A stretch of DNA of 64,000 bases. Source: Aldrovandia affinis (Eukaryota > Chordata > Actinopteri > Notacanthiformes > Halosauridae). The position numbers were made by a program, and so were the translations under genes. The stretch lies in NCBI GenBank assembly GCA_029706075.1, contig JAINUG010000088.1, positions 1,965,001 to 2,029,000 on the forward strand, written 5' to 3'. The notes beneath the pieces are model-generated. The model made no database searches and was not told where the DNA came from. It worked only from the letters and a program-made list of their open reading frames with translations. This document shows positions 6,363 to 62,869 of the stretch, in pieces. Numbering within the stretch: position 1 is the first letter of the stretch; each line of letters starts with the position of its first letter.

Positions 6363-6364
6363 GT

Positions 6365-35474: not shown

Positions 35475-36718
35475 CACTATATGGCCAAAAGTCAGTGGAC
35501 ACCTGACCATCACACCTATATGAGCTTGTTGGACATCCCATTCTAAAACCATGGGCATTAATATGGAGTTGGACCCCCCTTTGCGGCTATTACAGCTGCC
35601 ACTCTTCTGGGAAGGCTTTCCACAAGTGTGGAGTGTGTCTGTGGGAATTTGTGCCCATTCAGCCAAAAGAGCATCTGTGAGGTCAGGCACTGATGTTGGA
35701 TGAGAAGGCCTGGCTCGCAATCAGCGTTCTAATTCCTCCCAAAGGTGTTCAATGGGGTTGAGGTCAGGGCTCTGTGCAGGCCAATCGAGTTCCTCCACAC
35801 CAAACTCGTCTAACCATGTCTTTATGGACCTCGCTTTGTGCACAGGGGCACAGTCATGTTGGAACAGCAAAGGGCCTTCCCCAAACTGTTGCCACAAAGT
35901 TGGAAGCGCCCAATTGGCTAAGATGTCTTCGTATCCTGTAGCATTAAGAATACTCTTCACTGGAACTAAGGGGCCTATCCCAAACCCTGAGAAACAGCCC
36001 CAGACCATTATCCCTCCTCCACCAAACTTTACAGTAGGCACTATGCATTCCGGAAAGTAGCATTCTCCTGGCATCCGTCAAACCCAGATTCGTCCATCAG
36101 ACTGCCAGATAGTGAAGCATGATTCATCACTCCAAAGAACACGTTTCCACTGCTCCAGAGTCCAGTTGCTGTATGCTTTACACCACTCCAGCTGACGCTT
36201 GGCATTGCGCATGGTGATGTGAGGCTCGTGTGCAGCTGCTCGGCCATGGAAACCCATTCCATGAAGCTCCCGACGCACAGTTGATGGTGTGCTGATGGTG
36301 CTTCCAGTTTGGTACTCTGTAGTGAGTGATGCAGCAGATGATAGGCGATTTTTACGCGCTATGCGCTTCAGCACTCGTCGGCCCCGCTCTGTGAGTTTGC
36401 ATGGTCTACCACTTCGTGGCCGAGCTGTTGTTGCTCCTAGGCGCTTCCACTTCACAATAATAGCACTTACAGTTGACCGGGGCACATCTAGTAGGGCAGA
36501 AATTTCACGAACTGACTTGTGGCAAAGGTGGAATCCTATGACAGTGCCACGTTTAAAGTCACTGAGCTCTTTATGAACCATTCTGAATTCTAAATGTTTG
36601 TCTGTGGAGATTGCATGGCTATCTGCTGGATTTTATGCACCTGTTGGCAATGGGTGTGGCTGAAACACCTGAACTCAATAATTAGTAGGGGTGTCCACTG
36701 AGTTTTGGCCATATAGTG
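35475..36718 (-). mobile_element. Nearly intact Tc1-like element, 1244 bp (family D)
   Basis: Ends CACTATATGGCCAAAAGTCA and the reverse complement CACTATATGGCCAAAACTCA, continuing GTGGACACC, with TA at 35473-35474 and 36719-36720. Length and layout (one transposase gene between short terminal repeats) fit an autonomous Tc1 element. Only a few lesions in the transposase set it apart from a working copy, so it is the youngest-looking Tc1 in the window. Confidence 0.93.
35520..36581 (-). pseudogene. Tc1-like transposase with two nonsense codons
   Basis: Starts MVHKELSDFKRG at 36581. Residues 10-110 form the paired-type helix-turn-helix DNA-binding region (REISALLDVPRSTVSAIIVK, then a GRPCKLTERGRR linker). 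The catalytic core has VLWSDESCF (first Asp), [11 protein letters not shown] (second Asp) and [14 protein letters not shown] (final Glu), i.e. a DD34E-type set. The frame is continuous except for TGA at 36080-36078 and TGA at 35723-35721. Both stand where an Arg CGA codon would fit. Beyond that the last 20 or so residues appear to shift frame near 35630. It cuts and pastes its own ends in functional relatives; this copy cannot make a full protein. Confidence 0.88.
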
Positions 36719-40090: not shown

Positions 40091-41110
40091 ACATTTACAT
40101 TTTACATTTACATTTTAAGCATTTAGCAGACGCTCTTATCCAGAGCAACTTACAAGATGTGCATTAATACATGGTAAGAACAATAATAGTTTGCACATGA
40201 GGTCAGTGCAGTAATACAGCGATAGACATCGTTGTAGGCAGCTGCATACCATACCTGTAACAGTGGGAATAGGTATTATTTTTTAAATGAGAAGAACAAG
40301 AACTGTTGAGCAAGTCGGCAGGGGTGATGACAATTTAGCTAGATGGACAGAGTTCAGTGGTAGTGGAGTCTGAAGAGGTGGGTTTTGAGTCTCTTGCAGA
40401 AGATCGCAAGTAATTCCGCGGTCCTGACCGATTGCGGAAGGCCGTTCCAACAGCGAGGGATCAGGACAGAGAAGAGGCGAGAGGAGTGGCTGCCAGGCGC
40501 CCGGAGGGAAGGGACAGTCAGTTTACCAGAGGAGGTGGAGTGGAGGGGTCTGGGAGGGGTGTATGGAGTGATGAGTGACTGGAGGTAAGGGGGAGCAGTA
40601 CCTCTGGCCGCTTGAAAAGCAAGCACCAGTGATTTGAATCTGATGCGTGCTGCGATGGGGAGCCAGTGCAGAGAGGAGAGTAGAGGGGTGACGTGGGTGA
40701 ACTTTGGCTGGTTGAACACCAGACGAGCGGCAGCGTTCTGGACTAGTTGCAGTGGCTTGATGGCACAGGATGGAAGACCTGCCAGCAAGGAATTGCAGTA
40801 GTCCAGACGTGAGATCACCAGGGCCTGGAGTAGGAGTTGAGTGGCCTATTGGGTGAGAAACGGTCGGATCCTCCGGATGTTGTGGAGGGAGAATCGGCAG
40901 GTCCGAGTGATCGCTGCAATATGGCTCGAGAAGCACAGCTGGTTGTCCAGGGTTACTCCAAGACTCCTGGCAGACTGGGACGGAGACACTATGGAGCCTT
41001 CCACGGTGATTGATGCATCAATCATCGGGGAGCCCTTTGCAGGGAGGAAGAGCAGCTCTGTCTTCCCCAGGTTCAGCTTCAGGTGGTGGGTGGACATCCA
41101 AATTTGTGAA
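40091..41110 (-). mobile_element. 5'-truncated L2-clade LINE
   Basis: The plus-strand left edge carries the tail in reverse: ACATTTACATTTTACATTTA, then AAGCATTTAGCAGACGCTCT TATCCAGAGCAACTTACAAG. Minus frames encode the end of ORF2: HHLKLNLGKTELLFLPAKGS, SLGVTLDNQLCFSSHI, SRLDYCNSLLAGLP, LQLVQNAAARLVFNQPKF and SLHWLPIAARIRFKSLVLAF, ending HLFRLHYH. This is the post-catalytic RT thumb and C-terminal region of the L2/CR1 group. The catalytic RT core was lost by 5' truncation. One frameshift lies near 40830. Confidence 0.88.
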
Positions 41111-41739
41111 CTGACTAAAAAGACAGGGACAACGTTGCAGGCAGAAGTTCCAATTTTGAATTGTATTTTTTTCCATGTTTCTGACACATTGTTTGAAAAA
41201 CCAGATGAGCCTGCCTCTGTTGTCAACCTTTCAGTTGTGTCATCGAAATCCACTCGTAATGCATACTCCCCCTTCCCGCTGTTTATGACTTGAAAATGAT
41301 TAATTCCATTGGTCTACGATCAACATTGTCTTTTCTATTGTTTTGCAGTATATTTTGTTGTAATATTGTTATTTTCCAATTAAAACAATGCTAGCAAGTG
41401 TTAAATAAATAAATAAATACAAACAATCAAGCTGAGTGTTGCTGCCTTTTCCTATCACTCTTAATGGAATCTTAATGGAACAGAATGGACTCTTTTAATG
41501 CAGTTTTCTAAACTTTTACTTTTGGAAGGAGATATAAAAAATGTCATAACTTGGGTTCTGAAAGAGATATCTGAAAACCTTGAACGTATTTGAAAAGGTT
41601 GGACAAAAGGCTGTATATGTAAGTTCTAGTTATCTACTATTACAATAATACTACTAATACTACAACTACTACTAATAATAAATACTTTATTTTATTGATA
41701 ATAATATTGTTATGTTTGCAGCTAGTCTTACCAGGAGCC
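41111..41739. other. Spacer between two LINE copies
   Basis: Unrecognised sequence, AT-rich after 41280, with (TAAA)n at 41404-41419 and an ACTACTAATA-rich tract at 41630-41690. The two LINEs point away from each other across it. Confidence 0.45.
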
Positions 41740-43760
41740 TGTTTTACGAAGCAGTCCTCTATCCATTAAGCCTGCTCGTCTCCGACCCCCCAACCCCTGG
41801 CTAACTGACTACATTCGGGCTGACCATCTAAAACTGCGAGCAGCAGAAAGGAAATGGAGAAAATCCAAATCCCCTGTGGCTCTGACCGATTTCCACACAC
41901 TCCTGGCTACCTTTTCCTCTAACCTCTCCTCTGCTAAGTCTGCATTTTTCCTTTCCAAGAATCAATCTTCTGTTTCTAACCCTCAAAAACTCTACTCTAC
42001 GTTCTCCTCTCTCCTCACCCCTCCTCCTCCCCCACCCCCCTCCTCTCTAACCGTAGATGACTTTGCATCCTTCTTTCGCGAGAAGGCTGATGACATTCGC
42101 AACTCCTTCCCCCCATCCTCTCCCTCACCTAATTCTCCCTCACCCATCTCGCTACCTAAACCTCTCACTCCTCTGTCCTCCTTCTCGCCCCTCCCTGACT
42201 CAGACATCCTTCAACTTGTTCACTCCTACCGTCCCACCACCTGCCATCTCAATCCCATTCCTTCCCCCCTCTTCCAGTCCATTGCTATGGACATCTTCCC
42301 CTTTGTCTCCAATGTCATTAACTACTCTCTTTCCTCTGGCTCCGTCCCCTCTTCCCTCAAATGCGCTCATGTTGTCCCCCTCCTCAAAAACCCTCTCTGA
42401 ATCCTGCTGTCATTTCAAGCTACCAAACTGTCTCTCTCCTCCCATTCCTCTCCAAAACACTAGAGTGGGCTGTCCACAACCAACTGTCTGCTCATCTCCT
42501 ACAGAACGACCTGCTTGATCCTAACCAATCTGGGTTCAAAGCAGGCCACTCCACAGAGACTGCTCTCCTTGCGGTCACCGAGGCTCTTCACGTGGCTAAG
42601 TCCCAATCCCTCAGCTCCGTCCTCCTCCTCCTCGACCTGTTGGCGGCATTCGACACCGTGGACCACCAGATCCTGCTCTCATCTCTCGTCGAGATGGGAA
42701 TCTCTGGATCTGCATTGACATGGTTTGAGTCCTACCTGGCTGACCGGTCATACCAGGATCCCTCTCCTCTCCCCACACCCTCTCTACCGGAGTCCCGCAA
42801 GGCTCGGTGCTAGGCTCCATCCTATGCGTCAATCACCGTGGAAGGCTCCATAGTGTCTCCGTCCCAGTCTGCCAGGAGTCTTGGAGTGACCCTGGACAAC
42901 CAGCTGTGCTTCTCGAGCCACATTGCAGCAATCAGTCTGACCTGCCGATTATCCCTCCACAACATCCGGAGGATCTGACCGTTCCTCACCCAAGAGGCCA
43001 CACAACTCCTGGTCCAGGTCCTGGTGATCTCACATCTGGACTACTGCAATTCCTTGCTGGCAGGCCTACCGGCCTGTGCCATCAAGCCACTGCAACTAGT
43101 CCAGAATGCCGCCGCTCGTCTGGTGTTCAACCAGCCAAAGTTCACCCACGTCACCCCTCTACTCTCCTCTCTGCACTGGCTCCCCATCGCAGCATGCATC
43201 AGATTCAAATCACTGGTGCTTGCTTTTCAAGCGGCTAGAGGTACTGCTCCCCCATACCTCCAGCCACTCATCACTCCCTACACCCCAGCCAGACCCCTCC
43301 GCTCCACCTCCTCTGGCAAACTGACTGCCCCATCCCTCTGAGCGCCTGGCTCGCGGTCTCGCCTCTTCTCTGACCTGACCTCTCACTGGTGGAATGACCT
43401 TCCGCAATCGGTCAGGACCGCGGAATCACTTGCGAGACTCAAGACCCACCTTTTCGGACTCCACTACCACTGAGCTCTGTCCATCTAGCTAATTGTCATC
43501 ACCACTGCCTACGTGTTCAACACTGTATACCCCTCCTTACTCCATCTAAAAAAATTAATAAAAAAATAAACATTTTCTAACCTTTTCCTTCCCAGTGTTA
43601 CAGGTATGTTACGCAGATGCCTGCAATGATGTCTATCGCTGTATTACTGTACTGATCTCTTGCGCTAACTATGATTGTTCCTACCATGTATTTATGCACA
43701 TCTTGTAAGTCGCCCTGGATAAGAACGTCTGCTAAATGCTTAAAATCTTAAATGTAATGT
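41740..43760 (+). mobile_element. L2-clade LINE copy lacking the RT catalytic centre
   Basis: 41745-42400 encodes the segment before RT (PWLTDYIRADHLKLRAAERK, Pro/Ser-rich linker with DDFASFFREKADDIR). 42405-42760 encodes RT motifs: SSYQTVSLLPFLSKTLEWAV, NQSGFKAGHSTETALLAVTE, LDLLAAFDTVDHQIL and WFESYLADR. Near 42785-42835 SGVPQGSVLGSI jumps straight to VEGSIVSPSQSARSLGVTL, so the block holding the YADD-type catalytic motif is deleted. 42870-43470 is the C-terminal region as in the minus-strand copy. The 3' end has CTTGTAAGTCGCCCTGGATA AGAACGTCTGCTAAATGC and a TTAAATGTAATG tail. Several stops; dead. Confidence 0.88.
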
Positions 43761-45110: not shown

Positions 45111-46065
45111 AGCTGTGTAAATTTATGTGTCATTAAGAAGCTAGGCGGCCCTGGCAGTAAGGGTGTGGAAGGCTGGAAGCCAGCCAAAGCCCCTGGCCCC
45201 CATGTACCATCAGCACTGCCATAGAGCTCCAGAGAAAAAAGCCCAGTACTGCCACGCTAGCAGGACTGCAAAAATTGCCATTGGCAACAAAAGGATCTCT
45301 GAAATGTAACTCAGGTTGCTCATTTTCTCCTGTTAGTTTATTTGTTCCTTTGGGGGATCCTAGAGCTGGATTTATTTATTTTTTATTTCTGGTGAAACCG
45401 AGGCAGCGATGAGATACGCCATAAACTCACCCCAGGTAAATTTGATCCAGCGCTTGGAATTGACCAAATGTAAGTAAGCAGGGGCAAATGCATTTTTCAC
45501 AATGACATTTTTATCGAGACTTTAGAAAGCAAGTTTATCATACCCAAGAAACCCCCCCCAAAAAACAAACCACTTTGCTGCAGGTTGCCTTATGCAATAC
45601 AATTCACTGAATTATAACAGCTTTCTCAAGGCCAGCCTTGTATTTGCTATTCAAATGAGTGTCTTCCCTTGAGTTTCTGCATACTAATACACGGTGTGGC
45701 GTTCTTCTCTCAGTCAAGGAGATGGTTGAGTGCTGGCCTTGGAAAGCAGATTACACTTGTCGCGCTGAAGAGATGGAGCATTTGTGCTACAAATGGGTTT
45801 GCATGACATTGCCTCGAGGCATTGTGCTGTCATCATCTTAGCTTGGACATTTTTCCGATTTTAATTTGGATCCTGTTGTGCAGAGCCTCCTGGATGCCCT
45901 CATGAAGAATGGTATAGACCTTGTTGTATAGTTTTTTTTATGGTATTGAATTCACTATGACCACACAAGTGCAACCACCTGCATATACTGAGTGCATAAG
46001 GATAGCATAGTAACCAATCGTTACAGTTTTGTAATCACAACATTGAATTGAAAACTACTCCAAGT
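45111..46065. other. Non-coding sequence flanking the retrotransposon dimer
   Basis: 45620-45845 has balanced composition and an open plus frame (45659-45841) with no known domain. The five bases CAAGT at 46061-46065 form the left target duplication of the adjacent retrotransposon. Confidence 0.45.
46061..46065. other. Left target-site duplication of the dimer (CAAGT)
   Basis: Identical to 57263-57267 directly after the third LTR. A 5-bp duplication is standard for Ty3/gypsy integrase. Confidence 0.9.
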
Positions 46066-46751
46066 TGTAGTGTGGGTCGAGGAAGGAAGAGCCACTCGCA
46101 GATGTCACGAATATCTAAAAGCTAACTACAAGTAGTCAACCACTAAGTCTGCGAACAGATAAGGGAGCAGGGGGAAAAATGGATGGACAAAGAAAAAGAA
46201 ACTCCGGGCATAAAGTCCACGGAAAATAATAACAACCCAAAGGTTGTGGACTCTTCAAAAAAGAGGTAAGAAACTTAAATGATTTTAGAGACTTTAGCTC
46301 TGGGAGTTTTTTTAACCCAAAAACAAAAGAATGAATCTCGAAAAGGAAATGCCACCGGAGTGACAAGCAATAACCAAAGCTAGAAAGGAAATAATCCTCC
46401 TAGAACGGCAACCAGAGAGTGGCAACGCTAACCTTTTTAAAGAGATCCTAAATAGTACCTTCTCTCTTTAACTGAGAGACCACCAAGTGGAAAACTAATA
46501 CCTTAGTTCTAGTACCGGCTAGAGCGTAACAATGGTTTACACAGAAGCGTTTGAGATAAGAAAACGCAGCCCTTAAATAGTAGGCGGAATAAACACTGAC
46601 AATCCACAGCTGGCCACGACCGGGAAAACCCCAGACAAAAGACCAAATAAGGGAATTGCCAATGACAATGATTCCTCACACAAAACAAAGGGAACAGACC
46701 ATCACATGGTCAAGCGCCCTCCAGCGGCTGAACAAGGTAAAACCATGACAG
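46066..46751 (-). repeat. LTR1 (3'-most LTR), 686 bp
   Basis: In element orientation it begins TGTCATGGTTTTACCTTGTT and ends GACCCACACTACA. A polypurine tract (AAGGGGGGTCC) lies just upstream at 46752-46763. The TATA-like CTATTTAAGG is at 46580-46571. The self-complementary segment GCTTCTGTGTA is at 46548-46538, about 31 nt downstream of it. Confidence 0.95.
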
Positions 46752-46761
46752 GACCCCCCCC

Positions 46762-49700
46762 TTAAGGAGCGCCCCCAGCCGATCCCCCAGAACCATGCCG
46801 ATGGAAATCGCGAATAAGATCGGGGTCCAGAATATTCCTGGACGGAACCCAGCAGCGTTCCTCAGGGCCATAGCCCTCCCAATCTACTAAGTATTGTATG
46901 CCCCTGCCCACACGCCTACTAGAAATAATGCGACGCACCGTGTAAACCGGCTGGCCATCAATAAGTCGAGGAGGAGGCGGTGGTACATCAACCGGAGCCA
47001 AAGGGCTAGTCACAACCGGGCTTAATGCGGGAGGCGTGAAATGTGGGATGAACCCTCATGGATCGGGAAGTTGAAGGTGACGGTGACGGGATTGATTTTA
47101 CGGCTAATCTTGAAAGGCCCCACAAAACGAGAGGAGCAAGTTTACGCGATTCAACCCGCAACGGCAAATCGCGAGTGGAGAGCCACACCCGTTGCCCTAC
47201 ACGTATGACGGCGCCGGACGACGACGCCTGTCAGCGATAACCTTCTGGCGGGCAGAAGCCCGCAGGAGCGACTCGCGCACCTTTCTCCATGTAACCCGAC
47301 ACCGTCGGACAAATGACGCAGCAGACGGCACTCCCGTCTCTCTCTAGTTCAGGGAACAGAGGTGGTTGGAAACCGAACTGTGCCTCAAGGAGAGAGACCA
47401 GTGGACGCATTACGCAAGGTGTTATGCGCGTATTCAGCCCAGGCGAGATGTCGACTCCAAGAGGTCGGATTGGATGAAGCCAAACAGCGGCGTTCCTTCC
47501 ATAGATTGGTTAGTCCGCTCTGTCTGCCCATTGGACTCAGGATGAAATCCCAAGACAGACTTACGGACGCCCCAAAAAGGGAACAGAAAAGCGCCAAAAA
47601 TCGGGGCATAGCAAACTGAGGTCCGCGATCGGACACCACGTCCAGAGAAGACCATGGATACGGAACACATGATCAACCACCAACCGAGCGGTTTCGAGAG
47701 CGGACGGCAACTTGGGCAGAGGATAAAATGAGCCGCCTTGGAGAACCTATCCACTACCACCAGGATAACCGTGTGACCTTCAGATACCGGCAGACCGGTC
47801 ACAAAATCCATGGCGATGTGACTCCAAGGGCGACTAGGAATGGGCAGTGGCGAAGAAGACCAGATGGTGGAAGCCGAGACCCTTTATTCCGAGCACATAT
47901 GGAACAGGCCGAAACGCATTCACGCACATCACTCTCCATCTTAGGCCACCAGAACCTTCTGGCTAAGAACTCATGAGTCCTGTGAATACCGGATGACCCG
48001 TCAACCGGGAAAAATGACCCCATTGCAACACCTGAGCTCGCACTTTGATGGTACAAAAAGGCGATCCGGAGGACCACCACCGGATCGGTTCCAGACTTTG
48101 TGCCTTACGCACCACGGATTCAATACTCCAGGAAACTGGAGCCAGAATCTGAGCGGCGGGAACAATGGGCTCAGGAGAGTGATTCACCTCTGAACCGTCA
48201 AATAACCGAGAGAGTGCATCTGGTTTGATGTTTTTAGAACCAGGGCGGTATGTCAGAATAAAATTAAAGCGCGTAAAGAAAAGCGACCAGCGGGCCTGCC
48301 GTGAATTACGGCGCTTGGTGTCCTGAATGTACTCCAGGTTTTTATGATCGGTCCAGACCGTGAACGGATGTTCAGCCCCTCTAACCAATGACGCCACTCT
48401 TCGAGCGCCAGTTTTACTGCTAACAACTCTCTGTCCCCGACGTCATAATTTCTCTCCGCAGGGAAAGTCCCTGGGAGAAATAAGCACAGGGGTGGATCTT
48501 CTGATCCAGAGGAGAGCGTTGAGACAGTATCGCCCTACTCCAAGCTCCGAGGCGTCGACCTCTACCACAAAGGGGAGAGATGGATTAGGGGTGATGAGAA
48601 TGGGTTCGGAGGTGAACCTCCTTTTAACTCTAAAAATGCTGCCTCAGCTTTGGATGTCCATAAAAACCGAGAGGGAGCAGTTTTTTTTGTAAGAGCCGAA
48701 ATAGGAGCAACCACGGAGCTAAAATTGCGAATGAAACGCCGGTAAAAATTAGCGAACCCCAAAAATCGTTGGACCTGCTTAACCGATTCAGGGGTGGACC
48801 AATCCCTGACCGCTGACACCTTCCTGGGATCCATTTGGATACTCCCCTCCGCCACAATAAAACCCAGAAATGAAACGGAACTGGAGTGGAAAACATTTTT
48901 CGGCTTTGACGAACAGCCACGCCTCTAAGAGACACTTTAACACTCGTTTAACGTGTTCTTTGTGTTCAGAAAGATTTTTGAAAAATAAGAATGTCGTCTA
49001 AATAGACGAAACACAAATCTCCAGCATTTCTCTGAGCACGTCGTTCACAAAAGCCTGAAACACAGAGGGGGCGCTAGTGAGTCCAAAAGGCATGACCAGG
49101 TACTCATAGTGGCCGCTGTGAGTGTTAAAAGCGGTCTTCCACTCATCCCCCTCACGAATCCGCACCAAGTTGTAAGCATTGCGCAAGTCAAGCTTGGAAA
49201 ACACAGATGCTCCTTGGAGACGTTCAAAAGCGGAATTCATGAGGGGAAGCGGGTACGGTTCTTGACCGTGATATTATTAAGACCTCGATAATCAATACGG
49301 CCTTAATCCCCCATCTTTCTTCCCTACAAAGAAAAAACCCGCACCTGCAGGTGACGTAGATGGTCTAAAAAAGCCATTTTTTAAAGATTCCTTAATGTAC
49401 TCTCTCATGGCAGTGCTCTCAGGAGCCGAGAGAGAATACAGAGAACCGCGGGGAGGAATTGTACCCGGCTGTAGTTCGATAGCGCAATCATATTTTCTAT
49501 GCGGAGGTAAAGTGGTGGCCCTTTGTTTACTAAAAACCTCCTTGAGATTAGCATAAACATTAGGCACGCCACTGGGTAAAGGAAATACCTCCGCACTAAG
49601 GAGTTCCAAACTCTCTGATCGCGAACTAAAACTGGAGAAGTCATCGACCGGTTCTCTCCAGTCGGCCAGTGGATCCCAGTCTAAACTCCCCTCTCTCTCC

Positions 49701-50216
49701 TCTGACATAACGGGAGGCGTGTCTCCGTCCACAGAATCCTCTCTGTCTCATCCTCAGCTATTTGGGAGGGTGTGTCCTGATCCACGGAACATGTGTCAGA
49801 TTCGTCCGCGACCGAACTAACTCGCTCTCAATAGTCTGATAACAAGGAAGAAGTCCTGCTGACAATGATGGGCACACTGGGAACCCCACTGAATTATGAC
49901 CTCATTCTGACCACCCCAGTTAATGCGTGGCTTATGTTTGCTAAGCCAAGAATGACCTAATACCAGGGGTAGGTCGGCGAGTCAACTAAAAAGAATTTAA
50001 TGTGCTCGGTGTGATTTTTTAAAAGAACACGCATACACACATTTTCAGTCCTGTCGTGAATACTACCAGAACCCAGTGGCCGACCATCGAGTGCCGTAAT
50101 AAAACGTGGGCTGAGGAAGCGCGCACAGGTATCTGTGCGTCGAGCCCACTTGGCATCCATAAAACAGTCTACCGCCCTGAATCTAAAAGGCGTCAATCTT
50201 AACAGATTGTTCGTTC
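46762..50216 (-). pseudogene. Pol of dimer copy 1 (PR-RT-RH-IN-chromodomain), frameshifted
   Basis: Reading down the minus strand: protease near 50190-50160 (DSGAVDCFMDAKWA once a one-base shift is allowed), then GHSWLSKHKPRINWG. RT follows: [12 protein letters not shown] (49320-49292), [15 protein letters not shown] (about 49200-49155), [14 protein letters not shown] (about 49095-49055) and [10 protein letters not shown] with the catalytic YLDD at 49004-48993. RNase H has [11 protein letters not shown] (about 48365-48330) and [18 protein letters not shown]. Integrase has the GHP-H and CSIC zinc ligands (about 48010-47890), MDFVTGLP (47811), VSDRGPQFA (about 47637) and HPESNGQTER with the catalytic Glu (about 47540-47510). 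The chromodomain reads [10 protein letters not shown] to [13 protein letters not shown] (about 46945-46850), and the gene ends TAA at 46762. About a dozen frame breaks, nearly all small indels relative to copy 2. Confidence 0.88.
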
Positions 50217-50225
50217 CAACTCAAT

Positions 50226-51310
50226 TCAATGGGTAAAAAGGTTCGAAAGGATGTAGTCAAATGTCTCGCCAGTGCCTTTCGATCCACTAGTGAGACTGAC
50301 CTTTTCCCTTAAGTTTAGGACAGTTAATCTTATTGTGACCCGTCTGTCTGCAGTAGCGACAGTATTCTGGACCAGAGTCAACCCTTTTGTATTTTGAATG
50401 GATGAACTATCCAGTTGCATGAGTTCCTCCCCTCCTTCCCTAGAACTTGACGCTTCCAGGGACTCCCGTGACAGGGAAACCAAACGCGCCAGGCGTAGTT
50501 TTATTCCGGTTGTCCGTCTCTCTCTCTCACGCTCTCTGATACGATTGTCAATACGTATGGCGGTAGAAACCAAGGTTTCAAATGAATCAGGAGAATCAAG
50601 AGCCGCCAACGCGTCTTTAACTGACTCAGATAGGGCGTTCGTGAATAGCATACTGAGCGGACCCTCCGACCAGCCGGATTCACCAGCCAGCGATCTAAAT
50701 CGGATAGAAAACTCCGCTACGCTAAGCGACGACCCCTACGAATCCGAACCAGTCTTATAGCTGCCTCTTTACCAGAGATTTCATGATCAAATACCAGCTC
50801 CATCTCCTTCATAAGTTTATGGAGTCGTCTAAAATTGGTGCCTGCGATCGTATAAGCGGAACCGCCCATTCGAGAGCCGCACCAGTCAGGAGAGATAAGA
50901 TAAGTGAAACTCGTGCATTATTAGACTGATAACAGGACGGTTGAGCCCTATAAATAATCAAGCATTGTGAAATAAACCTCGACATTTGCCCGACTCTCCG
51001 TCATAACGTGGAGGAAGTTGAATTTTAGGTTCACGAGGAGGAGGAAGTGCTTGTGCAACAGTCTGAAGTAACTGAGCCCGGAAACCTGTACCGGGGTTTG
51101 TGTGCTACTACTTAGTTGCGAAAAATTATTTACTAAATCCCGCATGGAACTTTCCATCGCGAGCAATCTCGCATACATCTCCCTTTGTTGCTCACTGGCC
51201 TCTGTTAATTGGAAATGCAGTTGCCGGATGGCCTCCGCTTGACCAGCTAGCAATGTTTGTTGCGTAGCCACAGTTAGCTCGATATTCGTAGTTTTTGCTG
51301 GCTCAGTCAT
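50226..51310 (-). pseudogene. Gag of dimer copy 1
   Basis: Starts MTEPAKTTNIELTVATQQ at 51310, only 18 bases after the LTR. A Gln/Glu-rich helical N-terminus is followed by a capsid-like stretch with PPRYDGESG. The frame breaks near 50995 and in 50760-50650, then resumes with SVKDALAALDSPDSFETLVS. Near 50365-50315 a complete CCHC zinc knuckle CRYCRQTGHNKINC binds RNA in relatives. It ends LSNLFTH and TGA at 50228-50226. Pol continues in a different frame. In this copy the knuckle is intact, while copy 2 has lost one base inside it. Confidence 0.85.
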
Positions 51311-51315
51311 ATTTG

Positions 51316-51326
51316 GCTTCTGCGTA
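51316..51326 (-). other. Putative self-priming binding site, copy 1
   Basis: Element-strand sequence TACGCAGAAGC lies one base after LTR2. It pairs over all 11 positions (one G-U) with GCTTCTGTGTA in the LTR R/U5 region. No TGG-starting tRNA-complementary site is present next to the LTR. Confidence 0.65.
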
Positions 51327-51327
51327 C

Positions 51328-52008
51328 TGTAGTGTGGGTGAGGAAGGAAGAGCCACTCGCAGATGTCACGAATATCTAAAAGCTAACTACAAGTAGTCAA
51401 CCACTAAGTCTGCGAACAGATAAGGGAGCAGGGGAAAAATGGATGGACAAAGAAAAGAAACTCCGGGCATAAAGTCCACGGAAAATAATAACAACCCAAA
51501 GGTTGTGGACTCTTCAAAAAAAGAGGTAAGAAACTTAAATGATTTTAGAGACTTTAGCTCTGGGAGTTTTTTAACCCAAAAACAAAAGAATGAATCTCGA
51601 AAAGGAAATGCCACCGGAGTGACAAGCAATAACCAAAGCTAGAAAGGAAATAATCCTCCTAGAACGGCAACCAGAGAGTGGCAACGCTAACCTTTTAAAG
51701 AGATCCTAAATAGTACCTTCTCTCTTTAACTGAGAGACCACCAAGTGGAAAACTAATACCTTAGTTCTAGTACCGGCTAGAGCGTAACAATGGTTTACAC
51801 AGAAGCGTTTAAGATAAGAAAACGCAGCCCTTAAATAGTAGGCGGAATAAACACTGACAATCCACAGCTGGCCACGACCGGGAAACCCCAGACAAAAAAG
51901 ACCAAATAAGGAATTGCCAATGACAATGATTCCTCACACAAAACAAAGGGAACAGACCATCACATGGTCAAGCGCGCTCCAGCGGCTGAACAAGGTAAAA
52001 CCATGACA
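51328..52008 (-). repeat. LTR2 (shared central LTR), 681 bp
   Basis: Same borders as LTR1 and LTR3. It serves as 3' LTR of internal copy 2 and 5' LTR of internal copy 1. The self-complementary segment is at 51806-51796. It differs from the outer LTRs mostly by single-base indels. Confidence 0.95.
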
Positions 52009-52016
52009 GGACCCCC

Positions 52017-55000
52017 TTAAGGAGCGCCCCAGCCGATCCCCCAGAACCATGCCGATGGAAATCGCGAATAAGATCGGGGTCCAGAATATTCCTGGACGGA
52101 ACCCAGCAGCGTTCCTCAGGGCCATAGCCCTCCCAATCTACTAAGTATTGTATGCCCCCTGCCCACACGCCTACTAGAAATAATGCGACGCACCGTGTAA
52201 ACCGGCTGGCCATCAATAAGTCGAGGAGGAGGCGGTGGTACATCAACCGGAGCCAAAGGGCTAGTCACAACCGGCTTAATGCGGAGACGTGAAATGTGGG
52301 ATGAACCTCATGGATCGGGGAAGTTGAAGGCGAACGGTGACGGGATTGATTTTACGGCTAATCTTGAAAGGCCCCACAAAACGAGGAGCAAGTTTACGAT
52401 TCAACCCGCAACGGCAAATCGCGAGTGGAGAGCCACACCCGTTGCCCTACACGGTATGACGGCAGGGACGACGACGCCTGTCAGCGAGGCACCTTCTGGC
52501 GGGCAGAAGCCCGCAGGAGCGACTCGCGCACCTTTCTCCATGTAACCCGACACCGTCGGACAAATGACGCAGCAGACGGCACTCCCCATCGTCTCTCTAG
52601 TTCAGGGAACAGAGGTGGTTGGAAACCGAACTGTGCCTCAAAAGGAGAGAGACCAGTGGACGCATTACGCAAGGTGTTATGCGCGTATTCAGCCCAGGCG
52701 AGATGTCGACTCCAAGAGGTCGGATTGGATGAAGCCAAACAGCGAAGCGTTCCTTCCATAGATTGGTTAGTCCGCTCTGTCTGCCCATTGACTCAGGATG
52801 AAATCCCGAAGACAGACTTACGGACGCCCCCAAAAGGGAACAGAAAGCTCGCAAAATCGGGGTCGCAAACTGAGGTCCGCGATCGGACACCACGCCCAGA
52901 GGAAGACCATGGATACGGAACACATGATCAACCACCAACCGAGCGGTTTCGAGAGCGGACGGCACCGCTGGGCAGAGGGATAAAATGAGCCGCCTTGGAG
53001 AACCTATCCACTACCACCAGGATAACCGTGTGACCTTCAGATACCGGCAGACCGGTCACAAAATCCATGGCGATGTGACTCCAAGGACGACTAGGAATGG
53101 GCAGTGGCCGAAGAAGACCAGATGGTGGAAGCGAGACCCTTTATTCCGAGCACATATGGAACAGGCCGAAACGCATTCACGCACATCACTCTCCATCTTA
53201 GGCCACCAGAACCTTCTGGCTAAGAACTCATGAGTCCTGTGAATACCCGGATGACCCGTCAACCGGGAAAATGACCCCATTGCAACACCTGAGCTCGCAC
53301 TTTGGATGGTACAAAAGGCGATCCGGAGGACCACCACCCGGATCCGGTTCCAGACTTTGTGCCTTACGCACCACGGATTCAATACTCCAGGAAACTGGAG
53401 CCAGAATCTGAGCGGCGGAACAATGGGCTCAGGAGAGTGATTCACCTCTGAACCGTCAAATAACCGAGAGAGTGCATCTGGTTTGATGTTTTTAGAACCA
53501 GGGGCGGTATGTCAGAATAAAATTAAAGCGTAAGAAAAGAAAAGCGACCAGCGGGCCTGCCGTGAATTACGACGCTTGGTGTCCTGAATGTACTCCAGGT
53601 TTTTATGATCGGTCCAGACCGTGAACGGATGTTCAGCCCTCTAACCAATGACGCCACTCTTCGAGCGCCAGTTTTACTGCTAACAACTCTCTGTCCCCGA
53701 CGTCATAATTTCTCTCCGCAGGGGAAAGTCCCTGGGAGAAATAAGCACAGGGGTGGATCTTCTGATCCAGAGGAGAGCGTTGAGACAGTATCGCCCTACT
53801 CCAAGCTCCGAGGCGTCGACCTCTACCACAAAGGGGAGAGATGGATTAGGGGTGATGAGAATGGGTTCGAGGTGAACCTCCTTTTAACTCTAAAAATGCT
53901 GCCTCAGCTTTGGATGTCCATAAAAACCGAGAGGGAGCAGTTTTTTTGTAAGAGCCGAAATAGGAGCAACCACGGAGCTAAAATTGCGAATGAAACGCCC
54001 GGTAAAAATTAGCGAACCCCAAAATCGTTGGACCTGCTTAACCGATTCAGGGGTGGACCAATCCCTGACCGCTGACACCTTCCTGGGATCCATTTGGATA
54101 CTCCTCCGCCACAATAAAACCCAGAAATGAAACGGAACTGGAGTGGAAAACGATTTCTCGGCTTTGACGAACAGCCACGCCTCTAAGAGACACTTTAACA
54201 CTCGTTTAACGTGTTCTTTGTGTTCAGAAAGATTTTTGAAAAATAAGAATGTCGTCTAAATAGACGAAAACAAATCTCTCCAGCATTTCTCTGAGCACTC
54301 GTTCACAAAAGCCTGAAACACAGAGGGGGCGCTAGTGAGTCCAAAAGGCATGACCAGGTACTCATAGTGGCCGCCGCTGAGTGTTAAAGCGGTCTTCCAC
54401 TCATCCTCACGAATCCGCACCAAGTTGTAAGCATTGCGCGCAAGTCAAGCTTGGAAAACACAGATGCCTTGGAGACGTCAAAGCGGAATTCATGAGGGGA
54501 AGCGGGTACCGGTTCTTGACCGTGATATTATTAAGACCTCGATAATCAATACACGGCCTTAATCCCCCATCTTTCTTCCCTACAAAGAAAAACCCGCACC
54601 TGCAGGTGACGTAGATGGTCTAAAAAAGCCATTTTTAAAGATTCCTTAATGTACTCTCTCATGGCAGTGCTCTCCAGGAGCCGAGAGAGAATACAGAGAA
54701 CCGCGGGAGGAATTGTACCCGGCTGTAGTTCGATAGCGCAATCATATTTTCTATGCGGAGGTAAAGTGGTGGCCCTTTGTTTACTAAAAACCTCCTTGAG
54801 ATTAGCATAAACATTAGGCACGCCACTGGGTAAAGGAAATACCTCCGCACTAAGGAGTTCCAAACTCTCTGATCGCGAACTAAAACTGGAGAAGTCATCG
54901 ACCGGTTCTCTCCAGTCGGCCAGTGGATCCCAGTCTAAACTCCCTCTCTCTCCTCTGACATAACGGAGGGCGTGTCTCCGTCCACAGAATCCCTCTCTGT

Positions 55001-55473
55001 CTCATCCTCAGCTATTTGGGAGGGTGTGTCCTGATCCACGGAACATGTGTCAGATTCGTCCGCGACCGAACTAACCTCGCTCTCAATAGTCTGATAACAA
55101 GGGAAGAAGTCCTGCTGACAATGATGGGCACACTGGGAACCCCACTGAATTATGACCTCATTCTGACCACCCCAGTTAATGCGTGGCTTATGTTTGCTAA
55201 GCCAAGAATGACCTAATACCAGGGGTAGGTCGCGAGTCAACTAAAAGAATTTAATGTGCTCGGTGTGATTTTTTAAAAGAACACGATACACACATTTTCA
55301 GTCCTGTCGTGAATACTACCAGAACCCAGTGGCCGACCATCGAGTGCCGTAATAAAACGGGCTGAGGAAGAGCGCGCACAGGTATCTGTGCGTCCCCAGC
55401 CCACTTGGCATCCATAAAACAGTCTACCGCCCCTGAATCTAAAAGGCGTCAATCTTAACAGATTGTTCGTTTC
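52017..55473 (-). pseudogene. Pol of dimer copy 2, frameshifted
   Basis: Same domain order as copy 1: protease active-site region near 55440-55410, LGHSWLSKHKPRINWGGQNE (about 55222-55165), RT with YLDD at 54262-54251, RNase H at about 53890-53450, integrase with [11 protein letters not shown] (about 53170-53135), [11 protein letters not shown] (about 52895-52865) and [10 protein letters not shown] in place of HPESNGQTER. The chromodomain [13 protein letters not shown] is at about 52155-52110. A one-base loss near 52030 removes the normal stop alignment and lets one frame run into LTR2. Where copy 1 is broken copy 2 is often intact and the reverse, so their consensus would be far less damaged than either; I have not built it. 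Confidence 0.86.
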
Positions 55474-55482
55474 CAACTCAAT

Positions 55483-56562
55483 TCAATGGGTAAAAAGGTT
55501 CGAAAGGATGTAGTCAAATGTCTCGCCAGTGCCTTTCGATCCACTAGTGAGACTGACCTTTTCCCTAAGTTTAGGACAGTTAATCTTATGTGACCCGTCT
55601 GTCTGCAGTAGCGACAGTATTCTGGACGAGAGTCAACCCTTTTGTATTTTGAATGGATGAACTATCCAGTTGCATGGGTTCCTCCCCTCCTTCCCTAGAA
55701 CTTGACGCTTCAGGGACTCCGTAGACCGGGAAACCAAACGCGCCCAGGCGTAGTTTTATTCGGTTGTCCCGTCTCTCTCTCTCACGCTCTCTGATACGAT
55801 TGTCAATACGTATGGCGGTAGAAACCAAGGTTTCAAATGAATCAGGAGAATCAAGAGCCGCCAACGCGTCTTTAACTGACTCCAGATAGGCGTTCGTGAA
55901 TAGCATACTGAGCGGACCCTCCGACCAGCCGGATTCACCAGCCAGCGATCTAAATCGGATAGAAAACTCCGCTACGCTAAGCGACCCCTGACGAATCCGA
56001 ACCAGTCTTATAGCTGCCTCTTTACCAGAGATTTCATGATCAAATACCAGCTCCATCTCCTTCATAAGTTTATGGAGTCGTCTAAAATTGGTGCCTGCGA
56101 TCGTATAAGCGGAACCGCCCATTCGAGAGCCGCACCAGTCAGGAGAGATAAGATAAGTGAAACTCGTGCATTATTAGACTGATAACAGGACGGTTGAGCC
56201 CTATAAATAATCAAGCATTGTGAAATAAACCCTCGACATTTGCCCGACTCTCCGTCATAACGTGGAGGAAGTTGAATTTTAGGTTCACGAGGAGGAGGAA
56301 GTGCTTGTGCAACAGTCTGAAGTAACTGAGCCCCGGAAACCTGTACCGGGGTTTGTGTGCTACTTAGTTGCGAAAAATTATTTACTAAATCCCGCATGGA
56401 ACTTTCCATCGCGAGCAATCTCGCATACATCTCCCTTTGTTGCTCACTGGCCTCTGTTAATTGGAAATGCAGTTGCCGGATGGCCTCCGCTTGACCAGCT
56501 AGCAATGTTTGTTGCGTAGCCACAGTTAGCTCGATATTCGTAGTTTTTGCTGGCTCAGTCAT
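55483..56562 (-). pseudogene. Gag of dimer copy 2
   Basis: Starts MTEPAKTTNIELTVATQQ at 56562. The frame runs to about 56070, including PPREPKIQLPPRYDGESG and SLLTGAALEWA, then shifts to RLHKLMKEMELVFDHEISGK and SVAEFSIRFRSLAGESGWSE, a typical retrotransposon capsid signature. The zinc knuckle region at about 55610-55570 has the first three ligands, but a missing base puts the last Cys out of frame. It ends LFTH and TGA at 55485-55483 as in copy 1. A longer frame starting inside the LTR at 56622 has no supporting leader. Confidence 0.85.
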
Positions 56563-56567
56563 ATTTG

Positions 56568-56578
56568 GCTTCTGCGTA
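56568..56578 (-). other. Putative self-priming binding site, copy 2
   Basis: Identical to the copy-1 site (TACGCAGAAGC on the element strand), one base after LTR3 and six bases before the Gag ATG. Confidence 0.65.
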
Positions 56579-56579
56579 C

Positions 56580-57262
56580 TGTAGTGTGGGTCGAGGAAGG
56601 AAGAGCCACTCGCAGATGTCACGAATATCTAAAAGCTAACTACAAGTAGTCAACCACTAAGTCTGCGAACAGATAAGGGAGCAGGGGGAAAAATGGATGG
56701 ACAAAGAAAAAGAAACTCCGGGCATAAAGTCCACGGAAAATAATAACAACCCAAAGGTTGTGGACTCTTCAACGAAGAGGTAAGAAACTTAAATGATTTT
56801 AGAGACTTTAGCTCTGGGAGTTTTTAACCCAAAAACAAAAAGAATGAATCTCGAAAAGGAAATGCCACCGGAGTGACAAGCAATAACCAAAGCTAGAAAG
56901 GAAATAATCCTCCTAGAACGGCAACCAGAGAGTGGCAACGCTAACCTTTTAAAGAGATCCTAAATAGTACCTTCTCTCTTTAACTGAGAGACCACCAAGT
57001 GGAAAACTAATACCTTAGTTCTAGTACCGGCTAGAGCGTAACAATGGTTTACACAGAAGCGTTTAAGATAAGAAAACGCAGCCCTTAAATAGTAGGCGGA
57101 ATAAACACTGACAATCCACAGCTGGCCACGACCGGGAAAACCCCCGACAAAAGACCAAATAAGGGAATTGCCAATGACAATGATTCCTCACACAAAACAA
57201 AGGGAACAGACCATCACATGGTCAAGCGCCCTCCAGCGGCTGAACAAGGTAAAACCATGACA
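56580..57262 (-). repeat. LTR3 (5'-most LTR), 683 bp
   Basis: Begins TGTCATGGTTTTACCTTGTT at 57262 and ends at 56580. The TATA-like CTATTTAAGG is near 57092-57083 and the self-complementary segment GCTTCTGTGTA is at 57060-57050. This is the LTR that would drive transcription of the leading copy. Confidence 0.95.
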
Positions 57263-57267
57263 CAAGT

Positions 57268-57958: not shown

Positions 57959-59439
57959 TAAATTGTTTGGGTTTGCTTTTGTTTGAGGTCCATCCGCAGA
58001 GGCACGTCATTTTATTGCTCCAGCTGTTGTCTAATCAATCCAGTGCATCAATACATGTCTTGCAATGCTTGTTCAGAGATTACCTGGCTCTAATAAGAGA
58101 CTTTATCATTTCATTTTTCCTGAAAGTCACCAGCCTGGATTCAATCAACATTCCTAAAGATGCCAATTCTTCATAAATACAGTTTGGCAAGTTCATAAAT
58201 CAATAAAACGAAACGTTTTTTTCCGCGATCACACTTTTAATTGTTTTTATTTTACTCCATGGATTCGTACAGATACACAGGATATTGAAGTCAAACATCC
58301 AAGAAAAAAACGTTCATTCAAGTTATTCTTAAGTTAAAGTTGAGGACAAATGTTGATCCAGGCTACTGTGCTGGCCAATCAGTGGCCGAGGAAGACCAAC
58401 ATCTTACATACCTCACCAATCAGTGAGATCCACCCAGCAACCTTGCTGGACCACTGGCAGATTGGGCATGTGGTGATCACCCCTACCCATCTCCTCCCAA
58501 ACCTCTGACAGGCCCCGGAGTTCGCCCACCTGCTACCATTGTTCCCGGAGCCTCAGGTATCGCTATTAACATTAATTAACACTCATTAAAGCCACGGGCT
58601 TGGCATTGTGCTCCGGTCAACACTGGCATGCATCTACTGCATGGCTGCCCATCTGTGCTCCATCAGCGAGGATGCCACGCCCCTCTAATCGGGGGTGACT
58701 GAATAAGGACACCAGAGCGTGACCACAAGACAAAGTTGGGGTTGGGAGGGGGGTGCAGAGAATTTCTGGCCTCTCTCTGTGATCTTCCTTCCCTCTCCCG
58801 CTTTGTGCATGGATGCCATAGAATTCATGTCACATCTTGTGCCTGAATTCTAAATCCCCTGCTGTGCTGTCAGGTGTATCATGTGTTTTGTTCTTCTAGA
58901 ACAGATAGTGACAGTATATGAAGCGTGAGGTGATACATATTGTCTTTTCAAATCTTCTTATTTAGGGGTTGGTGTTCCAATCAACAATGCACCATCTGAT
59001 TTAAAACCGCCTCATATCTCTGTTAAAACTATACATCGAAACAAATATCCTGCTAGAGCTTGGAAGAGCATGAGGGCTGAGATTACATGGCTTTGAGTGA
59101 AAACCTTGAACTGCACCAGCACAGAAAGACTGACATGAGGGGGGGAAGAATGGAAATGGATTGAGCAAAAATAGGTGGAGAGGGGAAAAAAGAGATAGAG
59201 AGAGAGAGAGATGCTCATGTACATATTCATTGTACTGTATACACTTAGTCAATAGTTGTAATATGTATTTCATGCAAATAAAGTATTTTGAATGGGAATT
59301 TAGTTGAGTAGAGAATCACTGAATGAGGAAAGTGAGTGTAGGAGTGCATAGGGAGGGGAAAGACATTTGAGGGACTTCTGAAATTCATGTCAAAATATTT
59401 GAAAGGAATTGAACTGAACGAGAACGAAGGGTAGTGGAA
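57959..59439. other. Non-coding sequence
   Basis: 58400-58880 has balanced composition, possibly conserved non-coding DNA. 59190-59212 is GA-rich. No splice-bounded open frame. Confidence 0.35.
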
Positions 59440-60312
59440 AACATTGTGAGAGAGGGTGAGTGAGAGAGAGCGAGAGACAGTGGAGAACAGTGTGAGAGAG
59501 GGTGAACAAGAGAGAGCGAGAGAGTGGAGAACAGTGTGAGAGAGGGTGAGTGAGAGAGAGCGAGAGAGTGGAGAACAGTGTGAGAGAGGGTGAACAAGAG
59601 AGAGCGAGAGAGTGGAGAACAGTGTGAGAGAGGGTGAACAAGAGAGAGCGAGAGAGTGGAGAACAGTGTGAGAGAGGGTGAGCAAGAGAGAGCGAGAGAG
59701 TGGAGAACAGTGTGAGAGAGGGTGAGCAAGAGAGAGCGAGAGAGTGGAGAACAGTGTGAGAGAGGGTGAGGAAGAGAGAGCGAGAGAGTGGAGAACAGTG
59801 TGAGAGAGGGTGAGCAAGAGAGAGCGAGAGAGTGGAGAACAGTGTGAGAGAGGGTGAGCGAGAGAGTGGAGAACAGAGAGGGTGAGCAAGAGAGAGCGAG
59901 AGAGTGGAGAACAGTGTGAGAGAGGTGAGCGAGAGAGTGGAGAACAGTGTGAGAGAGGGTGAGCAAGAGAGAGCGAGAGAGTGGAGAACAGTGTGAGAGA
60001 GGGTGAGCAAGAGAGAGCGAGAGAGTGGAGAACAGTGTGAGAGAGGGTGAGGAAGAGAAGCGAGAGAGTGGAGAACAGAGAGGGTGAGCAAGAGAGAGCG
60101 AGAGAGTGGAGAACAGTGTGAGAGAGGGTGAGAGAGTGGAGAACAGTGAGAGAGGGTGAGCAAGAGAGAGCGAGAGAGTGGAGAACAGTGTGAGAGAGGG
60201 TGAGCAAGAGAGAGCGAGAGAGTGGAGAACAGTGTGAGAGAGGGTGAGCAAGAGAGAGCGAGAGAGTGGAGAACAGTGTGAGAGAGGGTGAACGAGAGAG
60301 AGTGAGAGACAG
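59440..60312. repeat. 44-bp minisatellite, about 20 copies
   Basis: Unit GTGGAGAACAGTGTGAGAGA GGGTGAGCAAGAGAGAGCGA GAGA, period 44, with some shortened units of about 28-32 bp lacking AGTGTGAGA or GCAAGAGAGA (near 59855-59940, 60045-60150). The period is not a multiple of 3 and no frame contains a stop on the minus strand. Three overlapping Ser/Leu-rich frames of up to 364 codons result. These are artefacts of the repeat. Confidence 0.97.
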
Positions 60313-61093
60313 TGGAGAGTGAAGCGAAGGAGCAGCCACTGTCCTGCTTGTTGAATGTACAGCTGGGGCCCGACAGAGTGATTCATTGGTATTCTATTAA
60401 GACAAAAACGGCCTCTTTATAGGTCACCAGTCTGCGCTCTACCAACATCTAATACCTGTCAGAACCTAATCCCTCCTTTCCCTTTCATTTCAAGCTTGAG
60501 AGACCCGGGGAGTTCCTCACGCATGTTATTTTCATTACCCAGATAAATCCAGTCTGATGAAAAATCAATCCGCAGCGCAGTGGACCTGTCTGCTCGGACC
60601 AGGAGGAATGAGAACAGCATGGGGTCAGCCTGGATGCCTGAATTCTCTCTCTCTCTCTCTCTCTCTCCTCTCCTCTCTGTCTCTCTCTCTCACTTTGTCC
60701 CTCGCTGTGGCTGTGGGTTTGGATCAGCTGCGATTGATGACCAGCGGCTGCCTTAGCAACTTTGGGCCCCCCCACAAAGAAGGAAAAAGGGTTGAGTGTT
60801 TGTCAAGCCTGGTGGGAAGGGGAGTGAGCACTAGTTAAAAACAGTTTGTAATTAAAGGGAGAGTGGGGGATTACTTCAGGTAGACTATTACGGATGCAGG
60901 GCTGGTCATATGTACTTAGCTTGCTAGCAAACTAATAATCCATAATCCAGTTTCACAGCTAGCTACAGTATTGACATCGCCATACAACTCGGTAGCTAAC
61001 TTCCATAACTCAACTTCATAGTTGAGCATCATAGCTAATGCTAGTGTGCTATCCACGGTACTAACTGCACTGACATAGCTAATAACACATCTA
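60313..61093. other. Non-coding sequence with (CT)n
   Basis: 60642-60692 is CT-rich. 60500-60640 is unique-looking but matches no exon I know. The TA preceding the next Tc1 element is at 61092-61093. Confidence 0.4.
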
Positions 61094-62869
61094 CAGTGGG
61101 GAAAATAAGTATTTCACCCCCTGCTGATTTTGTGAGTTTGCCCCCTTACAAAGAAAGGAACGGTCTATAATTTTCATGGTAGGTTCATTTTAACAGTGAG
61201 AGACAGAATATTTAAAAAAATCCCAGAAAATTACATTATATGAATTTTAAACATTTATTTGTGTTTTTTGAGGAAAATAAGTATTTCACCCCTAGCAAAA
61301 CATGACTCAGTACTTGGTGGAGAAACCCTTGTTGGCAAGCACAGCGGTCAGACGTTTCTTGTAGTTGGTCACCAAGTTTGCGCAGATCCCAGGAGGGATT
61401 TTGGCCCACTCCTCTTTGCAGATCCTCTCCAAATCCTTAGGGTTTGTAGGTTGTCGCTTGGCAACTCGAAGCTTCAGCTCCCTCCACAGATTCTCTGAGG
61501 TAGGATTAAAAGGTCCGACAAAAACATTGAGAAACTGACTTTAGGCCACTCCATGACCTTAATGTGCTTCTTCTTGAGCCACTGAAGCAAGATTTTATAC
61601 AGACCAATTTTATTCAGGATGGAAAGATTTTGCCTTAGCCGTATGCTATATTTGGGTCATTGTCATGCTGGAACACCCATCCACGACCCATTTTCAGTGT
61701 CCTGGCTGAGGGAAGGAGGTTCTCACCCAAGATTTCCCGGTACATGGCCCCATTCATCCTCCCTCGATCCGGTGAAGTCATCCTGTCCCCTTAGCAGAGA
61801 AACAGCCCCAAAGTGTGGACAATGAATAATGAATATTCATAGCATTTTCCACCGTTCCAGGTTTTTAGCTATTTAGATCTCAGATGCTTGACCAAGTGAT
61901 GGGGATGGTGAAAAATTTACTATTTTTCTGTGGGGTCCAAGGCAGACCAAACTATTTTTTTTCTTCCTCCAAACACGGTGAGTGAAATTGAGATAAATTG
62001 ATGCCAAAGAGCACGGACCTCGATTTTAGTCTCATCTGACCACAGCACTTTCTCCCAAGCCTCCTCTGAATCATCCAGGTGCTCATTGGCAAACTTCAGA
62101 TGGGCCTGTACATGTGCCTTCTTGAGCCTGTACATGTGCCTTCTTGAGGGGGACCTTGCGGGCACTACAGGATTTCAATCCATTACGGCGTAGTGTGTTA
62201 CCAATGGTCATCTTGGTGACTGTGGTCCCAGCTGCCTTGAGATCATCAACAAGCTCCAGCCGTGTAGTTCTGGGTTGTTCCCTCACCTTTCTCATGATCA
62301 GGTTCACTCCACGAGGTGAGATCTTGCGTGGAGCCCCAGACCGAGGGAGATTGATAGTCAATTGGTGTTTCTTCCATTTTCTAATTATCGCACCAACAGT
62401 TGACTCCTTCTCACCAAGCTGCTTACCAATGGTCTTGTAGCCCATTCCAGTCTTGTGCAGGTCTACAATTTTGTCCCTGATGTCCTTAGACAATTCTTTG
62501 GTCTTGCCCATTGTGGAGAGGTTGGAATCTGATTCATTGATTGATTCTGTGGACAGGTGTCTTTTATACAGGTAACAAGTACTTAATTAGGAGTACTAAT
62601 TAAGTACTAATTGAGTAAGACCAAGTGTGCCTCCTGGTCACATAACCGGTCTGTGGGAGCCAGAATTCTTGCTGGTTGGTAGGGGGTGAAATACTTATTT
62701 TCCTCAATAAAACACAAATAAATGTTTAAAATTCATATAATGTGATTTTCTGGGATTTTTAAAAATATTCTGTCTCTCACTGTTAAAATGAACCTACCAT
62801 GAAAATTATAGACCGTTCCTTTCTTTGTAAGGGGGAAAACTCACAAAATCAGCAGGGGGTGAAATACTT
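61094..62869 (-). mobile_element. Tc1-like element with long inverted repeats (family E), right tip lost
   Basis: Left arm 61094-61290 starts CAGTGGGGAAAATAAGTATT and is mirrored by 62680-62869 with high identity. Each arm carries two copies of AAGTATTTCACC, the inner/outer direct-repeat layout of IR/DR Tc1 elements. The outermost bases of the right arm (AAGTATTTTCCCCACTG expected in mirror) are missing: after GGTGAAATACTTC the sequence diverges. No right TA duplication can therefore be assigned. Confidence 0.88.
61500..62511 (-). pseudogene. Tc1-like transposase broken by a 22-bp tandem duplication
   Basis: Starts [20 protein letters not shown] at 62511. The DNA-binding region follows: [20 protein letters not shown] (helix-turn-helix), then [20 protein letters not shown]. 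At 62105-62148 the 22-base unit CCTGTACATGTGCCTTCTTG AG is present twice in tandem. Because 22 is not a multiple of 3, the frame shifts there. The core resumes with [11 protein letters not shown] and WEKVLWSDETKIE (first catalytic Asp near 62035). It then degrades: extra bases separate KIE from the following FG-like segment, and the remainder to about 61500 has several stops. Inactive. Confidence 0.88.

Follow-up and report, generated by a model that had tools for sequence, protein, structure and literature searches.

How did two internal regions of one retrotransposon come to lie on either side of a single shared long terminal repeat (LTR), within what looks like the footprint of one insertion? 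The window, the whole stretch of 64,000 nucleotides analysed here, corresponds to positions 1965001-2029000 of contig C2444 in an assembly of 1.22 Gb and 2576 contigs. It contains, head to tail, an array of the form LTR-INT-LTR-INT-LTR (INT, internal region) that occupies 46066-57262 and is bounded by CAAGT. The parts of the array, in window coordinates, are as follows.

46061..46065, no strand: left target site duplication CAAGT, the sequence directly outside LTR1
46066..46750, minus strand: LTR1, the 3′ LTR of unit 1 on the coding strand (self-comparison, alignment)
46751..51327, minus strand: INT1, internal region of unit 1 (alignment, open reading frames (ORFs), Pfam)
51328..52008, minus strand: LTR2, the shared middle LTR, a mosaic that combines derived states of LTR1 type with others of LTR3 type (LTR alignment)
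52009..56579, minus strand: INT2, internal region of unit 2 (alignment, ORFs, Pfam)
56580..57262, minus strand: LTR3, the 5′ LTR of unit 2 on the coding strand (self-comparison, alignment)
57263..57267, no strand: right target site duplication CAAGT, the sequence directly outside LTR3

In a self-comparison of the window, 46066-52008 aligned with 51328-57262 as a direct repeat of 6.0 kb at 97.3% identity, and LTR1 aligned with LTR3 at 98.8% identity. LTR1, LTR2 and LTR3 are 685, 681 and 683 bp long, respectively, and all three start with TGTAGT and end with ATGACA on the plus strand. The sequences that flank LTR2, TTCTGCGTAC and GGACCCCC, are also the internal edges of single copies elsewhere; because of this match, neither host DNA nor a target duplication is present at LTR2. 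Each of the five other intact copies that were read carries a 5-bp duplication of its own (CTTTT, ATCGG, CACGT, TTTTT and GGTTT), which gives 5 bp as the duplication length of the family. The locus thus displays the features of a three-LTR tandem, namely two internal regions with one LTR in common, no intervening host DNA and a single outer duplication. The self-comparison and the LTR boundaries bear out the order of parts given in a preliminary description of this DNA, and its claim of CAAGT on both outer sides with no host DNA between the copies also holds, CAAGT being absent at LTR2. The word 'intact' in that description is apt for the structure and not for the coding content, as the longest ORF in either internal region as read spans 206 amino acids (194 on the coding strand).

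The sequence identifies the element as a Ty3/gypsy LTR retrotransposon coded on the minus strand. TG..CA LTR ends together with a 5-bp duplication are found at the dimer and at all five other intact single copies read. The following coding pieces were recognized.

47434-47883, minus strand: integrase core piece in INT1, weak (PF00665, E 0.047, below cut-off)
47963-48442, minus strand: RNase H piece in INT1 (PF17917, E 4.6e-08)
50948-51382, minus strand: start of the gag ORF in INT1 (no clear Pfam match)
53056-53511, minus strand: integrase zinc domain piece in INT2 (PF17921, E 1.9e-16)
56062-56628, minus strand: gag piece in INT2 (PF16297, DUF4939, E 3.2e-09)

Matches below the cut-off included a gag-like domain (PF03732, E 0.0024), rve pieces (E 0.047 and 0.0079) and RVT_1 (E 0.18). 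Once both units are superimposed, the gag-like, RNase H, integrase zinc and weak rve pieces fall in the order of a Ty3/gypsy element. No TGG for a primer binding site occurs at the internal edge beside the 5′ LTR, and no word beginning within the initial 12 bases of that edge showed an 8-11-nt complement to the LTR, as in self-priming. UnaL2-type LINE tails and Tc1-like transposases are also present and, from their usual host ranges, point to a fish.

Among the best 40 of 205 internal matches, which fall at 39 loci, two rows belong to this locus and no other pair lies about 5.3 kb apart, a spacing criterion that misses units lacking the searched piece, such as the first unit on contig C646. 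That contig was considered as a second three-LTR dimer, having three LTRs and an outer GTTTT duplication, and was rejected: a second copy of about 1.29 kb of left host flank separates its units, the first of which is truncated. C646 therefore represents a different kind of array, a segmental tandem duplication. It demonstrates that segmental duplication is known in the family and so lends some plausibility to an origin of the present array by tandem duplication together with host DNA. However, no host flank is repeated here as it is on C646, and LTR2 is one LTR with neither host DNA nor a duplication beside it, which also argues against two adjacent independent insertions. Recombination between nearby insertions would be expected to leave two unlike outer 5-bp sequences, whereas those observed are identical. 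We regard this whole group of origins as extremely improbable.

To place the two units relative to other family members, the LTRs were read at 11 loci including the window (20 LTRs, full or partial, from the best 40 of 877 LTR matches). The comparison set comprised 14 LTRs from nine loci, that is, five intact copies and four solo LTRs, with the C646 LTRs excluded. Two columns carry a state that all three LTRs of the array have and none of the 14 others does. Likewise, INT1 and INT2 agree with each other and differ from every other copy present at 12 internal columns, nine of them away from gaps; at least four other rows are available at each of these columns, some copies being missing in some pieces. 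By gap-friendly scoring, LTR1 and LTR3 differ by four substitutions in 682 bp and LTR1 and LTR2 by two. The same scoring gives two for LTR2 and LTR3, with some differences turned into gaps; site by site, these two LTRs differ at columns 196, 197, 571 and 656. The substitution divergence between INT1 and INT2 is 0.35%, compared with 0.14% and 0.37% between copies at separate loci (C1823-C2367 and C2367-C402, respectively). Because some separate loci are equally alike, the likeness of INT1 and INT2 was judged insufficient, on its own, to establish local duplication.

The middle LTR preserves information on the order of events. With the 14 other LTRs used to set polarity, two derived features are common to LTR1 and LTR2, namely a double change at columns 196/197 and the state at column 571, the latter read with MAFFT gap placement and then checked; a derived state at column 491 is common to LTR2 and LTR3. 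LTR2 thus resembles LTR3 at column 491, the left site, and LTR1 at column 571, the right one, as a single crossover between the two sites predicts. At columns 196/197, which lie within an A run of an indel-rich LTR, LTR2 is LTR1-like again, to the left of the LTR3-like site 491. This pair is out of order, so one crossover is insufficient and either a conversion tract or a reversion of LTR3 to the family state is needed. The mosaic reading thus draws on three informative LTR events, a thin basis. Together with the shared private changes, the mosaic LTR2 makes a single insertion with later LTR-LTR exchange, plus an extra conversion, a better explanation than insertion of a concatemer.

These observations suggest that a single Ty3/gypsy insertion was enlarged by LTR-LTR exchange between chromatids, with gene conversion in one LTR, a reading to which we assign a probability of roughly 0.6. 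One element would have inserted once, creating the CAAGT duplication, and its two LTRs would have gathered a few mutations. An exchange between the right-hand LTR on one chromatid and the left-hand LTR on its sister or homologue would then have yielded a chromosome with LTR-INT-LTR-INT-LTR and, as the reciprocal product, a solo LTR. A gene-conversion tract, either later or simultaneous, would have touched one LTR. Solo LTRs are products of LTR-LTR recombination, and the family contains them: of the four examined, three are flanked by a perfect 5-bp duplication and the fourth by one with a single mismatch. Their existence is counted in support of LTR exchange. The preliminary description had left the choice between one insertion with unequal LTR crossing-over and integration of a concatemer. 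A single insertion is likely, and the private substitutions and mosaic LTR2 make exchange the likeliest route from it, the concatemer being less supported.

The timing can be inferred only coarsely. At vertebrate rates between 1e-8 and 1e-9 substitutions per site per year, the LTR1-LTR3 divergence corresponds roughly to 0.3-3 million years, an estimate good only to an order of magnitude. The INT1-INT2 divergence was set aside as a clock, given 16 substitutions, just eight of them at isolated sites, in indel-rich sequence. The evidence that LTR1-LTR3 and the internal regions diverged at unequal rates was unconvincing (P = 0.046, or 0.13 with the double change counted once; seven isolated internal differences used).

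A ready-made dimer, formed as a concatemer or from read-through RNA of a one-LTR circle, could instead have inserted at once, or a cDNA or one-LTR circle could have recombined into a resident LTR. Both versions account for the single duplication, and a study of rice tandems deems dimer insertion and exchange both possible (PMC11899658). The LTRs of a dimer inserted at once start identical, however, and derived states shared by LTR1 with LTR2 and by LTR2 with LTR3 would need several later conversions. The cDNA version accounts for the finding that the INT1-INT2 differences are partly alleles found elsewhere (four of eight sites), but the 12 private internal substitutions demand that the incoming cDNA came from the same small sublineage. 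We consider this pair of routes unlikely.

Those differences merit closer description. INT1 and INT2 differ at eight isolated sites, with the minority state in INT1 at seven and in INT2 at one, and four of the eight minority states recur among five other loci that were compared. For three of the seven INT1 sites, the chance of such recurrence under random error is 4e-06, or 1e-04 with a tripled rate, in a test chosen post hoc. The recurrence argues against one sequence having been read twice. Nor would new mutation after plain duplication predict the pattern, which might reflect conversion by other family copies, the presence of two alleles, or a different origin for the second unit. The last of these is hinted at by the same four sites: the second unit may derive from a sister family member whose cDNA or one-LTR circle recombined into the resident LTR, leaving no second duplication. 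We hold this to be improbable. If true, the array would exemplify tandem insertion without integrase in the germ line of an animal.

That the assembly represents real DNA is itself something we infer. One real element could appear as two, a concern already raised in the preliminary description, if the assembler traversed the LTR-INT loop twice or stitched two alleles together, and the indels lend weight to this explanation. By gap-friendly scoring, INT1 and INT2 differ by 16 substitutions and about 92 indels in 4511 bp (20.4 indels/kb); by MAFFT with stiffer gaps, the counts become 65 indels and 95 mismatches, most of the latter clustered in runs, such that the split between indels and mismatches varies with gap scoring. 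The differences are chiefly length changes of 1-3 bp in short runs, most indels being of 1-2 bp. In a gap-friendly count of 93 indels, 61 lie within single-base runs and 69 repeat the adjacent unit. Such short-run changes suggest consensus error. Against the five other intact copies, INT1 or INT2 shows 15.2 indels/kb, whereas those five show 6.9/kb among themselves, one-third of the INT1-INT2 density. Summed over these comparisons, INT1 has 195 gaps and the copies aligned with it 102, while for INT2 the corresponding figures are 223 and 108, so bases are mostly absent from the copies in the window rather than from the five compared copies. LTR2 has 8-16 indels relative to each of 19 other LTRs (9 relative to LTR1 and 10 to LTR3), whereas LTR1 has 1-5 relative to 15 of 19 and LTR3 2-6 relative to 16 of 19. 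The locus therefore has an under-polished look, with most indels held by LTR2 and both internal regions and the outer LTRs nearly clean, and the broken frames of both units should not be taken as decay. A mixed consensus would, moreover, yield a mosaic LTR2 as well.

Several observations weigh against an assembly origin. Four of the eight isolated internal differences carry minority states known from another locus, although two alleles would still fit them. Indel-rich LTRs also occur at copies that are not dimers, namely C1819 and C402, whose left LTRs show 10-18 and 5-13 indels, respectively. The array occurs at one of the 39 loci represented by the best 40 of 205 internal matches. A search with 1 kb of each flank returned no allelic contig, and both flanks are unduplicated, each with one full-length place in the assembly; the right flank has 66 additional weak partial matches. 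On balance, an assembly artefact is somewhat unlikely, and exchange between the LTRs of a single insertion is the reading that we carry forward.

Comparable arrays are known from other organisms. The preliminary description held that such dimers are seldom described, a claim that several reports do not support. A rice pangenome contains 266 tandem LTR-retrotransposons, and kangaroo and Drosophila cases are cited alongside them (PMC11899658); in humans, a HERV-K tandem provirus is described or listed at 7p22.1 (PMC11807958, PMC3228705). A limited literature search returned no title reporting a three-LTR tandem in fish, a weak indication that none is on record.

In the rice study, TLI1, TLI2 and the IDENTAM set resemble the present locus in having two internal regions, three LTRs of which the middle one is shared, and one short target duplication. 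The units of TLI2 are near-identical (99%), gypsy elements are prominent, and the mechanism is left undecided between exchange and dimer insertion. The rice tandems differ in being plant elements and in that TLI1 was spanned whole by four long reads, whereas the present locus was read from one assembly; their copy number differs among accessions (PMC11899658). In kangaroo centromeres, as cited in that study, tandem retroelements likewise share internal LTRs, and LTR-LTR recombination between chromatids or homologues was proposed; tandem insertions of transposable elements in Drosophila are said to be relatively frequent. Both cases involve other families and other hosts (cited in PMC11899658).

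The closest vertebrate parallels are the HERV-K(HML-2) tandem provirus at human 7p22.1 (K108L/R) and the tandem alleles at 6q14.1, which combine three LTRs and two internal regions at one site and coexist with one-unit alleles in the human population (PMC11807958, PMC3228705). By contrast with our element, HERV-K is a retrovirus with env, not Ty3/gypsy, and its variation was studied with long reads from 222 people (PMC11807958). By analogy with rice and HERV-K, the present locus, if real, may be polymorphic between individuals. It would then be a clean animal case in which the order of insertion, LTR divergence and exchange is readable from a handful of sites. It works as the rice and HERV-K tandems do, and is a Ty3/gypsy example of them in another animal rather than a new class.

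Indels were not distributed evenly across the head-to-tail gypsy dimer. Across positions 46751-56579 of the window, which comprise the two internal regions and the middle LTR, indels were two to three times as dense as in comparisons among five intact single copies of the family elsewhere in the same assembly. The outer LTRs, unlike the middle LTR and the internal regions, were nearly clean of indels. This pattern suggests a local polishing failure at 46751-56579.

Other repeats in the window include the following.

6103-6570 and 7478-7825, plus strand: residual pieces of a further LTR-type element (PF17919, with PF00665 narrowly missing the cut-off)
9663-10017: minisatellite, 20-bp unit, ~18 copies
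35721-36632 and 62083-62586, minus strand: fragments of Tc1/Sleeping Beauty-like transposases (PF01498, PF25787, PF13358), with one in-frame stop interrupting the first
40113-43341, both strands: LINE fragments
40113-40165, minus strand: UnaL2-type 3′ tail within the LINE region
42322-42813: reverse transcriptase (PF00078) within the LINE fragments
59433-60318: minisatellite, 44-bp unit, ~20 copies; a 132-bp period fits too

The LINE ORFs lie on opposite strands (40354-41313, minus, versus 41726-43341, plus), with translations similar by eye; the Pfam search returned no match for the pieces at 40354-40845 and 41726-42400.

Three LTRs of the same gypsy family also occur on another contig of the assembly (C646:1382200-1396652). 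An LTR-LTR dimer was ruled out there, because sequence comparison revealed that ~1.29 kb of the left host flank recurs between the units and that both internal regions carry a ~1.35 kb insert. Judged from its sequence, the C646 locus is a tandem segmental duplication.
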